Source of the DNA: Pseudomonadota bacterium
GTDB taxonomy: Bacteria; Pseudomonadota; Alphaproteobacteria; Rhodospirillales; Rhodospirillaceae
Direction: 5' to 3'
DNA length: 40,972 nucleotides
Assembly: GCA_020160875.1 (NCBI GenBank)
Contig: JAIUPE010000002.1
Span: 64,084 to 105,055 of the forward strand
Notes under the pieces: generated by a model
What the model was told of the DNA's origin: nothing
Database searches by the model: none
The model's input: only the letters and a program-made list of their open reading frames with translations
In this document: piece by piece, positions 30,340-33,115 of the stretch
Layout of the letters: every line of letters starts with the position of its first letter
Numbering within the stretch: the stretch's first letter is position 1
Position numbers and translations under genes: made by a program

Positions 30340-31695
30340 GTGTCGCTGCTTAACGCCGACACACTTCTGGGGCAGGCGATCGCCGCGCAGAACGCGAATG
30401 ATTTCGCGCGCGCGGCGACGCTTTACCAGCAAGTGATCGCACTCGCGCCGAACCGGCCCGAGGCCTACGTCAATCTTGGCCTCATGCATCAGAATTCCGG
30501 CCGGCTCGATGTCGCGGAGAAATTTTACCGTGGCGCCATCAAGGTCGCGCCCAAACTGGCCATCGCGCATCTCAATCTTGGCGTCGTGCATGTGCAGCGC
30601 GGCGAGGAGGATGCGGCGGTGGCTTGCTTCCAGCAGGCCCTTAGGCTCGATCCTAATCGGAAAGACGCGCTGCTCAATCTGGCGGGCGCGTACGAGCGTA
30701 CCGGGGAAATCGAGAGCGCGGCGAAAGCGCTAGATCGTTTGATTGCGCTGGCGCCAGCCGACATCACCGCCAATATGGCGCGCGCCAACGCGATGTTCAT
30801 GTTGGGGCGCTGGCGGGACGCGTGGGCTTCCTATCACCGCCGTCACGCGATTTTCTGGGGTGAGGGCCGCGCGCTTCCGGGCCGCCCCTGGCGCGGCGAG
30901 GACATTGCCGGGAAAACGGTGCTGCTGTCCTTCGAGCAAGGCCTCGGCGAACAAATCATGTTTGCATCGATGGTGCCCGAGATTGCGCGCGTGGCCCAGC
31001 ATGTCGTCGTCGAATGCGAAGCGCGTCTCGTGGCGTTATTCCGCCGCTCCTTCCCCGATGTTGAAGCCGTGCCCTGGAGCGCGGACTGGCATCCGCGTGT
31101 GCGCGGCGCCGATATCGATTTTCACGCGGCGCTCGGCGACCCGGGCTTGTGGCTGCGGGACGGTTTCGAAAGCTTCGCTGCGCACGACGGCTACCTCGTC
31201 CCCGACGCCACGCGCGCAGCCGATCTTCGTCAGCGGTACGGCGCGCTGGCGAACGGCAAAAGAATCGTGGGGCTTGCGTGGCACAGCGCGGCTGTTCCCT
31301 TTGGGCCGCAGAAAAGCATTCCGCCGGCGGCTCTGGCGCCCTTGCTCGCGCGTGAGGATATTTTTTGGATCAATCTCCAGCACGGTCCGGCGCGCGGCGA
31401 AATCGGAGCGCCGCTGTGGGCCGATCCCACCATCGACCCCGCCGGCGATTTTGATCTGCTCGCCGCGCAAATCGCGGCCCTCGATATCGTCGTGAGCGCG
31501 AGCACCGCCACAGCCCATGTGGCGGGGAGCATTGGCAAGCCAACGCGGCTCATTCTTCCCAAGGTTCTTGGGCGTCATTGGTATTGGTTCCCAGAGCGCG
31601 ATGCGAACCCCTGGTACCCGTCTGTGAAAACATTCGTTCAAGACCGAGACGGCGTCTGGGACGACGCGATCGCACGCGCCGCGGCGGCGCTCTGA
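30340..31695 (+). CDS. TPR protein with a glycosyltransferase family 9-like domain
   Basis: A 451-residue protein. Residues 5-150 are tetratricopeptide repeats (for example AYVNLGLMHQNSGRLDVAEKFYRGAI, in units of 34). Residues 170-440 resemble the heptosyltransferase/GT9 fold: VLLSFEQGLGEQIMFASMVPEIA, then GLAWHSAAVPFGPQKSI, then LDIVVSASTATAHVAGSIGKPT, which is the nucleotide-sugar-binding region. Such fusions are common in alphaproteobacteria and are thought to glycosylate proteins or surface polymers; the acceptor is unknown. The start is GTG 30340, inferred from the end of the aconitase gene. A GGCGCGG/CCGCGCC hairpin occupies the place of the ribosome binding site. The stop codon abuts the -35 box of the thrS leader. 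Confidence 0.8.
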   Translation: MSLLNADTLLGQAIAAQNANDFARAATLYQQVIALAPNRPEAYVNLGLMHQNSGRLDVAEKFYRGAIKVAPKLAIAHLNLGVVHVQRGEEDAAVACFQQALRLDPNRKDALLNLAGAYERTGEIESAAKALDRLIALAPADITANMARANAMFMLGRWRDAWASYHRRHAIFWGEGRALPGRPWRGEDIAGKTVLLSFEQGLGEQIMFASMVPEIARVAQHVVVECEARLVALFRRSFPDVEAVPWSADWHPRVRGADIDFHAALGDPGLWLRDGFESFAAHDGYLVPDATRAADLRQRYGALANGKRIVGLAWHSAAVPFGPQKSIPPAALAPLLAREDIFWINLQHGPARGEIGAPLWADPTIDPAGDFDLLAAQIAALDIVVSASTATAHVAGSIGKPTRLILPKVLGRHWYWFPERDANPWYPSVKTFVQDRDGVWDDAIARAAAAL

Positions 31696-31724
31696 TTGAC
31701 AATCGCATATCTGAAGCGCTAGAT
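31696..31724 (+). promoter_or_regulatory. Promoter of the threonine leader and thrS
   Basis: An exact TTGACA (31696-31701) begins right after the stop codon of the preceding gene. CTAGAT (31719-31724) follows at 17 bases. With usual spacing, transcription would begin at about 31731, which is the A of the leader ATG. No Shine-Dalgarno sequence precedes that ATG, which agrees with a leaderless transcript. Confidence 0.65.
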
Positions 31725-31730
31725 GCGGCC

Positions 31731-31811
31731 ATGAGCAACGCGCGCCTTTTCTCGACTACGACCACCACCACGACCCACCTGGCTGGGCCGTTGGGATGGT
31801 GCGCGCGCTAA
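31731..31811 (+). CDS. Threonine-rich leader peptide of thrS
   Basis: A 26-codon reading frame, MSNARLFS, then seven consecutive Thr codons (31755-31775), then HLAGPLGWCAR and TAA. The Thr codons are ACT, ACG, ACC, ACC, ACC, ACG and ACC, so more than one Thr tRNA would be sampled. It lies between a strong promoter and an intrinsic terminator and precedes a threonyl-tRNA synthetase gene, the classical layout of a leader peptide that senses aminoacyl-tRNA supply by ribosome stalling. There is no ribosome binding site, and the predicted transcript starts on the AUG, so it is probably leaderless, as reported for trpL in Sinorhizobium. The peptide itself resembles no protein family I know. Confidence 0.88.
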   Translation: MSNARLFSTTTTTTTHLAGPLGWCAR

Positions 31812-31874
31812 AGCTCATACTTGCGTCACACCCCAAAAGGCCCCGCCGGCAACGGACGGGGCTTTTGGTTTTTT
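31771..31874 (+). promoter_or_regulatory. Transcription attenuator of thrS (pause hairpin, antiterminator, terminator)
   Basis: Three mutually exclusive structures can be drawn. The terminator pairs 31833-31845 with 31857-31868 (one bulged G) and is followed by six T to 31874. The antiterminator pairs 31785-31789 with 31839-31843 and 31791-31795 with 31832-31836, consuming the terminator's left arm. A 1:2 hairpin pairs 31771-31777 with 3184-type partner bases at 31784-31790 (one mismatch). A ribosome stalled on the Thr codons at 31755-31775 covers the first segment and frees 31785-31795 for the antiterminator; a ribosome reaching the stop at 31809 covers that segment and lets the terminator form. 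Hence thrS should be read through when charged Thr-tRNA is scarce. Confidence 0.82.
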
Positions 31875-31915
31875 AGCGCGCCCCGTCCGTCCTGGCTCAT
31901 TCAGGAGAAACGGAC

Positions 31916-33115
31916 ATGGATTCCATCGATCATCGCTTGCTCGGACGAAAACTCGGGCTCTTCCATCAACAAGAAGAAGGGCCGGGCATGGTGTTCTGGC
32001 ACCCGCGCGGCTTTGCGCTCTATCACCTTATCGAGGACTACATCCGCGCACACATGCGCAAAATCGGCTTCGCTGAGATCAGGACGCCGCAAGTTCTGTC
32101 ACGGTCGCTCTGGGAGAAAAGCGGGCACTGGGAAAAGTTTGGCGGCAACATGTTTTCTTTCCACCAGGACGGCGAGGACGGCCACCGCGACTACGCCCTG
32201 AAGCCCATGAGTTGTCCCGGTCATGTGCAGGTCTTCAATGCCGACCTGCGTTCGTTCCGCGATCTGCCGCTGCGTTACGCGGAATTCGGCGTATGTCATC
32301 GCAACGAACCCTCGGGGGCATTAGCGGGCCTGATGCGTACGCGCGCCTTCGTGCAGGACGATGCGCATATCTTCTGTCTTGAGGAGCATGTGGTGCCCGA
32401 GGTCGCGCGTTTTTGCGGGCTCCTGCGCACGGTCTATGCGGACTTCGGCTTCGAGGATGTGATCGTCGGCTTCTCGACGCGTCCGGCGGTGCGCGAGGGC
32501 GCTGACGATGTGTGGGATCGCGCGGAAGCCGCGTTGATGGCGGCTACCGATGCCGCCGGCCTGAAGTACCGGCTGCAGCCGGGAGAGGGCGCTTTCTATG
32601 GGCCGAAACTAGAGTTCGCGCTGAAGGATGCGCGGGGGCGCGAATGGCAATGCGGGACCATCCAACTCGACTTTGTCCTGCCAGAGAAACTCGATGCACG
32701 CTATGTCGACTCGCAGAACAACCGCCCGCGCCCGGTGATGATCCATCATGCGGTCCTTGGAAGTATCGAACGCTTCATCGCCATTCTCTTGGAGCATTAT
32801 GAAGGGCGGCTGCCGCTGTGGCTCGCACCCGATCAGATTGCGGTTGCCTCAGTGACAAGCGCGGCCGCCGACTATGCGCGCAAGGTCTATGAGGCCCTAG
32901 CCGCAGCCGGTTTGCGGGCCATGGTTGATACGCGCGAGGAGCGCATCGGGCGTAAGCTCGCCGAGGCGCGCCGGTCGTACATCCCGGCCTTCATCGCGGT
33001 CGGCGCAACGGAATCCACGAACGGTACGGTCGCGCTCCGCCGTCCCGACGGCGGTCAGGAGGTGATCGATCTCGATGTGGCTATTGAACGCCTCCGGGCG
33101 GAGGCGCGTAAATGA
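31916..33115 (+). CDS. thrS: Short threonyl-tRNA synthetase lacking TGS and editing domains
   Basis: A 399-residue class II synthetase against about 640 for the usual bacterial enzyme. It starts at DHRLLGRKLGLFHQQEEGPG, the first segment of the catalytic core, so the N-terminal TGS and the editing (N2) domains are absent. The zinc ligands for Thr recognition are all present: C100 in MSCPGH, H151 in QDDAHIF and H277 in MIHHA. Motif 2 (CHRNEPSG with R129) and motif 3 (GSIERF with R286) are intact. The anticodon-binding domain occupies about 300-399. AGGAG at 31902 supports ATG 31916, and the upstream bases are leader, terminator and promoter, so the truncation is genuine. It should charge tRNA-Thr but not clear Ser-tRNA-Thr itself. 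It is probably a second, starvation-induced ThrRS. It abuts convergent htpG by one base. Confidence 0.93.
   Translation: MDSIDHRLLGRKLGLFHQQEEGPGMVFWHPRGFALYHLIEDYIRAHMRKIGFAEIRTPQVLSRSLWEKSGHWEKFGGNMFSFHQDGEDGHRDYALKPMSCPGHVQVFNADLRSFRDLPLRYAEFGVCHRNEPSGALAGLMRTRAFVQDDAHIFCLEEHVVPEVARFCGLLRTVYADFGFEDVIVGFSTRPAVREGADDVWDRAEAALMAATDAAGLKYRLQPGEGAFYGPKLEFALKDARGREWQCGTIQLDFVLPEKLDARYVDSQNNRPRPVMIHHAVLGSIERFIAILLEHYEGRLPLWLAPDQIAVASVTSAAADYARKVYEALAAAGLRAMVDTREERIGRKLAEARRSYIPAFIAVGATESTNGTVALRRPDGGQEVIDLDVAIERLRAEARK

Follow-up and report, generated by a model that had tools for sequence, protein, structure and literature searches.

A threonine-codon leader upstream of a short thrS gene

The window, meaning the whole stretch of DNA analysed, comprises 40,972 nt of contig JAIUPE010000002.1 (GCA_020160875.1), positions 64,084–105,055 of the forward strand. 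It contains a short threonyl-tRNA synthetase (ThrRS) gene, thrS, preceded by a small open reading frame (ORF) that contains consecutive threonine codons and by RNA segments predicted to form competing hairpins. Downstream, htpG lies on the minus strand, convergent with thrS. The features are as follows, with the basis of each in brackets.

31696–31701, plus strand: −35 box TTGACA of the predicted leader promoter (6/6 match, starting 35 bases before the leader ATG)
31720–31725, plus strand: candidate −10 box TAGATG, weak (3/6 match, spacer 18, ending 5 bases before the leader ATG)
31731–31811, plus strand: leader ORF, 26 codons and a stop, MSNARLFSTTTTTTTHLAGPLGWCAR (ORF reading; pattern kept in related loci)
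31755–31775, plus strand: seven consecutive Thr codons, the putative sensor (sequence)
31759–31777, plus strand: arm 1 of a predicted protector hairpin, pairing with 31784–31803 (minimum-energy fold only)
31781–31795, plus strand: arm 2, the 5′ arm of the antiterminator, GGCTGGGCCGTTGGG (folding, partner-swap covariation)
31831–31847, plus strand: arm 3, the 3′ arm of the antiterminator, CCCCAAAAGGCCCCGCC, overlapping the 5′ arm of the terminator (folding, covariation)
31835–31874, plus strand: intrinsic terminator, AAAAGGCCCCGCCGGCAACGGACGGGGCTTTTGGTTTTTT, with the U tract at 31869–31874 (folding)
31903–31907, plus strand: thrS ribosome binding site AGGAG, 8 bases before the ATG at 31916 (sequence)
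31916–33115, plus strand: short (auxiliary) ThrRS gene, 399 aa (TIGR00418; Pfam; tree)

The Thr run reads ACT ACG ACC ACC ACC ACG ACC. A stretch of seven in-phase ACN codons is found at a single place in the 40,972-base window, and none appeared when the window was shuffled by dinucleotides (0/100). The terminator has a predicted folding energy of −25.3 kcal/mol; it was called by folding because a simple consensus terminator scan of the window did not list 31835–31874. A slightly wider version of the antiterminator duplex reaches −28.4 kcal/mol; when its 5′ arm was shuffled 200 times, 0.5% of the shuffled arms paired equally well. Taken together, the segment from 31732 to 31880 folds better than 200/200 shuffles (z −3.49). 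An earlier note, made from the sequence of this DNA, had described a 26-codon frame with seven consecutive Thr codons, a terminator at 31833–31874 and an antiterminator formed by 31785–31795 with 31832–31843. The frame is present at 31731–31811, folding places the terminator at 31835–31874 and the antiterminator pairs 31781–31795 with 31831–31847; the coordinates given for the leader elements were correct within a few bases.

No Rfam family, Thr_leader included, reached its gathering score in the window, and a scan of 31650–31960 at E up to 1 gave no Thr_leader match. Below threshold, that scan matched Leu_leader (29.2 bits, gathering 50, E 0.00028) and Yfr1 (21 bits, gathering 38). A T-box riboswitch was not among the Rfam matches of the window or of 31650–31960.

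The gene behind the leader is a short ThrRS paralogue

The 399-aa protein matches TIGR00418 with 458.6 bits (cut-off 383.65) across profile positions 172–564 of 565. In three short ThrRS proteins scanned with Pfam, the only domains found were PF00587 (catalytic) and PF03129 (anticodon-binding), and the TGS and tRNA_SAD editing domains were absent. The genome of the window also carries a full-length thrS on another contig, a 644-aa open frame without a Thr-run ORF. One branch with 100/100 support splits the ThrRS tree into 28 short and 41 full-length proteins; this tree was rooted for drawing only, L121 (G039) forms a long branch and the G050 protein was left out. The reading of the gene as a ThrRS gene in the earlier note stands; domains and tree make it a short paralogue and not the housekeeping copy.

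Thr-rich leaders accompany short thrS genes

We searched 73 genomes of the family, 317 of the order and samples of the class (385 genomes) and the phylum (398 genomes), together with 80 named loci and a plasmid collection in which 3/102 records were examined (two with short, one with full-length thrS); the plasmid records left out include Caballeronia SBC1 (H2). At least 30 short thrS genes were found in all, including that of the window. At least 13/385 alphaproteobacterial genomes of the class sample carry one; all numbers given for short thrS are minima, because the searches of order, class and phylum applied score limits. Within the class sample, the split falls between the lowest-scoring short gene (636.9 bits; frames of up to 514 aa) and the best full-length gene (631.5 bits; 679 aa). 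Carriers include Bradyrhizobium sp. STM 3809 (L010), an Azospirillaceae MAG (L024) and, in the Burkholderiales, Caballeronia sp. SBC2 (L164, on a megaplasmid) and Burkholderia arboris (L165, on a replicon filed as a plasmid). A full-length thrS is also present in 22/22 carrier genomes searched, although in G605 it is in two pieces on different contigs; the search left out six phylum-sample genomes, and two plasmid records were searched without chromosomes.

The earlier note had proposed looking for relatives that keep the terminator and lose the Thr codons. When this test was run, the Thr codons proved to be kept: a leader with at least four Thr in six codons precedes 27/29 short thrS genes with upstream DNA, a set that omits L122 (G009) because its contig ends inside the gene. 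The Thr-rich leaders span 20–30 codons and end 94–146 bases before the start codon of short thrS. Counted per leader, with G517 (see below) included, there are three to ten Thr codons, which vary among ACC, ACG, ACT and, once, ACA, and the peptide sequence outside the Thr run also varies. A terminator was found at 20/20 loci with a Thr-run ORF in a scan of 22 short loci; outside that scan, the terminator was judged by folding at L138 and by reading of the sequence only at L225–L230.

There are two exceptions. The G517 leader (L140), MQSIILTVATIKVTAVGGALGRCA, has three Thr codons, dispersed between codons for Ile, Val and Leu, and keeps the terminator; it is possibly a changed sensor. G039 has two Thr codons, no Thr run and a hairpin without a U tract. 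Among the leaders counted is that of the closest relative, L088 (G050:C64; 86% identical), whose short thrS is interrupted near its end by an in-frame TAA; that gene may therefore be decaying or wrongly assembled.

Full-length thrS genes served as a control set. Among 146 distinct genes, a Thr-run ORF precedes 6, and a Thr-run ORF together with a terminator precedes 2 (L127 and L069). The proposed search for both elements upstream of short and long thrS bore out the association for the short genes; most long ones lack the element. Thr-rich ORFs before full-length thrS at L030, L097, L099 and L153 have no terminator and were rejected as chance occurrences.

Two other arrangements were seen before full-length thrS. 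At L127 and L246 (G088:C45), the gene has its own, unrelated Thr-rich leader, MFTLCTTTTSTTTRTPGREGP, with a different terminator sequence, and L127 looks like an independent Thr attenuator of full-length thrS. In Paraburkholderia (L069 and L071), similar Thr-rich mini-ORFs, MTPRTLTETTSERR and MTPRTFTEITSERR, lie between a tRNA-like gene and full-length thrS and precede a strong terminator ahead of that gene; L069 is doubtful as an attenuator.

Terminator and antiterminator pairings covary

RNAalifold on a MAFFT whole-leader alignment recovered the terminator only. Arms of different length misalign in such an alignment, and covariation was therefore tested by partner swap, in which each arm was paired with its own partner or with partners from other leaders (22 leaders; 20,000 permutations). 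For the antiterminator, own partners gave −29.1 kcal/mol and swapped partners −26.2 kcal/mol, and 0/20,000 permutations were as good. The terminator behaved similarly (own −27.2, swapped −25.2 kcal/mol; 0/20,000). With 18 representatives, 0/20,000 permutations were as good for the antiterminator and 1/20,000 for the terminator. Limiting the test to the 14 bases that precede the terminator core weakens it (528/20,000, or 164/20,000 with 18 representatives). A check for covariation had been part of the original proposal, and both pairings covary by this measure.

Matching changes can be read by eye in individual leaders. The terminator stem of G224 has an additional A–U pair, and arm 2 carries the corresponding U; in the Azospirillaceae MAG, arm 3 has A in place of G and arm 2 has U in place of C. 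The predicted 5′ arm of the antiterminator begins 0–9 bases after the Thr run in the 22 leaders. Measured against its own shuffles, the antiterminator reaches p up to 0.05 in only 12/22 leaders, and for G608 58% of shuffles do as well.

The leader is probably translated from a leaderless RNA

The candidate −10 box of the window ends 5 bases before the leader ATG, and the predicted transcription start therefore lies at about the AUG. A stricter promoter scan of the window found no promoter. Across leaders, a −35 box with a match of at least 5/6, starting −42 to −32 from the leader ATG, is present in 26/28 (G039 left out), compared with a mean of 1.0 and a maximum of 5 in 1000 rounds of shuffling. 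The −10 boxes are weak throughout, with 1 to 5 of 6 positions matched. In 26/28 leaders no Shine–Dalgarno-like stretch was found before the ORF. This absence and the position of the −35 box make a leaderless RNA the probable template for translation of the leader. Leaderless RNAs are reported for trpL of Sinorhizobium meliloti, where the leader ATG is the 5′ end of the attenuator RNA (PMC7298713), and for several leaders of Streptomyces lividans (PMC8079986).

The S. meliloti layout, which resembles the one predicted here, is accompanied by a reported trans action of rnTrpL/peTrpL (PMC7298713), and the attenuated thrS RNA or its peptide might likewise also act in trans. The peptide varies outside the Thr run, which argues against such a role, and we consider it unlikely.

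The promoter box directly 5′ of the leader also bears on whether the ORF could be a chance Thr-rich frame above the ordinary terminator of an upstream gene. Terminators of this form are common in the genomes searched. A leader model, R1, built from 22 leaders and with at most 8 candidates scored per genome, found matches at E up to 0.01 in at least 123/385 genomes, many of them to the terminator half only. A chance frame, however, would not account for the difference between short thrS (27/29) and full-length thrS (2/146), for the covariation of arms 2 and 3, or for the position of the promoter box, and we regard it as extremely improbable.

A predicted attenuation switch

We consider it highly probable that the element is a ribosome-mediated transcription attenuator controlling the auxiliary short ThrRS. 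At the level of sequence, this is supported by the ORF and its codons, by both pairings with their covariation, by the promoter position and by the co-occurrence with one group of ThrRS. From this arrangement we infer leader translation, ribosome stalling, switching and the inducing signal, and with them a response to threonine or charged tRNA.

In the proposed mechanism, transcription would begin at or close to the leader AUG. When Thr-tRNA is plentiful, the ribosome would cross the Thr run, arm 2 would be covered or paired with arm 1, and the terminator would form and stop transcription before thrS. When Thr-tRNA is short, the ribosome would stall on the Thr codons, leaving arm 2 free to capture arm 3 once it has been made. 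Pairing of arms 2 and 3 would block the terminator, and the short ThrRS would be made. The inducing signal could be starvation for threonine, or a main ThrRS that fails or is inhibited.

Folding with a ribosome in place agrees with these states. With the ribosome on a Thr codon and the RNA made through arm 3, arm 3 pairs upstream in 22/22 leaders; when the ribosome is moved to the stop codon or left out, 22/22 leaders form the terminator (both without a shuffled control). Once the whole terminator is present, it beats the antiterminator at equilibrium in 19/22 even with a stalled ribosome. The switch must therefore be kinetic, set by which helix forms first.

The hairpin before thrS could instead limit ribosome access to the gene, with the leader translated in cis. 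The G039 hairpin without a U tract would fit such translational control, as would the S. lividans thrL region, for which one hairpin and no U-rich stretch are reported (PMC8079986). In the window, however, the hairpin ends in TTTTTT, 28 bases 5′ of the thrS Shine–Dalgarno, and all 20 Thr-run loci scanned have a terminator, which makes translational control very unlikely beside transcription attenuation.

Possible roles of the short ThrRS

Residues C100, H151, H277, R129 and R286 are kept in 28/28 short ThrRS proteins; we take the first three to be zinc ligands and the two arginines to be those of class II enzymes. Residue 99, which adjoins C100, is S in 28/28 short and N in 40/41 long proteins. 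Residue 278, which adjoins H277, is H in 27/28 short and R in 41/41 long proteins. Among the sequences compared, these two substitutions beside the presumed zinc ligands mark the short ThrRS clade. In the genome of the window (91% complete), there are just two tRNA_SAD matches, the full-length ThrRS and an 894-aa frame that is probably AlaRS; the short enzyme would therefore be either unedited or edited in trans.

The threonine attenuator could hold and the short ThrRS be a resistance copy, in which case an inhibitor of the main ThrRS would lower Thr-tRNA and thereby induce a resistant second enzyme. This concerns the purpose of the enzyme, not the switch. The scattered distribution of short thrS, its presence beside full-length thrS in all 22 genomes searched and the near-fixed S99 and H278 beside C100 and H277 are consistent with it. 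There is also a precedent in the auxiliary, antibiotic-resistant TrpRS of Streptomyces, which is attenuated and was reportedly described by Vecchione and Sello in 2010. However, the positions presumed to contact inhibitors hardly differ between short and long ThrRS. Among these presumed contacts of borrelidin or obafluorin, the equivalent of L489 is L in 28/28 short and 39/41 long proteins, that of L493 is L in 26/28 short and 40/41 long proteins, and the remaining contact positions compared are identical. We entertain a resistance function only tentatively.

A broader proposal, which we put forward tentatively, is that one split gave rise to a silent ThrRS, free of editing domains and altered in its zinc pocket, that would be switched on only when Thr-tRNA is exhausted. 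It might serve as an emergency enzyme that evades inhibitors of the main ThrRS, or might loosen the choice between Thr and Ser under threonine starvation at a cost in mistranslation. If that choice is relaxed, the full-length ThrRS would perhaps edit in trans, by analogy with T1/T2 of Anabaena.

Similar leaders before other genes

Strong R1 matches were also found before genes other than thrS. Leaders rich in Lys and/or Thr codons and sharing the terminator form lie before asd (aspartate-semialdehyde dehydrogenase), both in the genome of the window (L231:733–873, or G000:C103:7632–7772; MRMTPKTTPTTKTTTSGGASRACA) and in other alphaproteobacteria (L207, L209, L210, L211, L213, L214, L218, L224, L232, L233, L240 and L244). 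The identity of asd was assigned by NCBIfam for L231, L207 and L224 and judged by sequence at the remaining loci. L247, L249 and L250 are weaker R1 matches before genes that we presume to belong to the dihydrodipicolinate synthase family, and the leaders read in L247 and L250 contain Arg and Lys codons. Strong R1 matches at L212, L215, L216, L217, L219 and L221 have other codon mixes (for example MIKSSRTFNRNHMTRFGWAVGGVAR) and stand before other genes. The thrS attenuator is therefore similar to a wider group of alphaproteobacterial leaders that have their terminator/antiterminator form in common.

Comparison with known systems

Leader-peptide attenuation of aminoacyl-tRNA synthetase genes is a known kind of control, to which the proteobacterial thrS element very probably belongs. 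If the attenuator is as proposed, it would firmly add threonine and ThrRS to the synthetases under a run of their own codons, the case being backed by genome comparison and by a complete terminator/antiterminator switch. It would also show that attenuator and short ThrRS are kept together across Alphaproteobacteria and Burkholderiales, and would give a handle on why bacteria keep a second, truncated ThrRS. What could lift the element beyond the known kind is its enzyme, which lacks editing domains and has an altered zinc pocket.

The leader of the gammaproteobacterial thr operon (Rfam Thr_leader) has Thr codons and a three-hairpin architecture. It controls biosynthesis, whereas the element of the window precedes a synthetase gene and has no Thr_leader match. 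The pheST leader of gammaproteobacteria is likewise an attenuator before a synthetase gene, but with Phe codons and a housekeeping enzyme. The E. coli thrS operator has, to our knowledge, no leader ORF. It too acts on thrS from the 5′ UTR and differs in that the synthetase binds a tRNA-like element there, as a translational operator (PMC8058203). The pheST leader is also named in PMC1262725.

Two alphaproteobacterial leaders reported from S. meliloti share features with the thrS element. The rnTrpL/trpL attenuator starts at the leader ATG, as predicted here, but has Trp codons and belongs to trpE(G) (PMC7298713). SEP5, which has six Thr and three Lys codons, is described from the 5′ UTR of an "aspartate dehydrogenase" gene (PMC10117765); it is likewise Thr-rich and differs in its biosynthetic gene and its mixed Lys/Thr codons. 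As described, SEP5 probably belongs with the asd leaders listed above, and its gene is probably asd. A leader coding sequence upstream of trpS is also reported in Caulobacter (PMC4117421).

Attenuators before auxiliary synthetase genes are reported in Streptomyces, where leader-peptide attenuators were described for trpS2 (S. avermitilis) and leuS (Seliverstov et al. 2005, PMC1262725). The attenuated TrpRS genes share with the present element a leader of cognate codons before a second, auxiliary synthetase gene; amino acid, enzyme and phylum differ, as does the short ThrRS in having neither editing nor TGS domains. In Anabaena, an inducible second ThrRS with impaired proofreading accompanies an accurate one (T1/T2) and is induced by zinc depletion (PMC4787780). 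The second ThrRS is the common element, and the word "leader" is absent from the text of that paper.

The earlier note had considered a Thr attenuator before a ThrRS gene not to be a standard described element. Such a leader is not wholly undescribed, because thrL/thrS of S. lividans TK24 is in print (PMC8079986). For Proteobacteria, no Thr leader before thrS, nor a link to a short ThrRS, was found among the matches listed from open-licence literature, the coverage of which is incomplete. As reported, S. lividans has a leaderless Thr leader, MKRVRPFLETTPGFVPAR, with two Thr codons before the threonine-tRNA ligase gene; an attenuator was proposed from RNA-seq starts, and termination is left unclear (PMC8079986). 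Compared with what is reported for this actinobacterium, the proteobacterial element has three to ten Thr codons, an intrinsic terminator, a covarying antiterminator and a short ThrRS.
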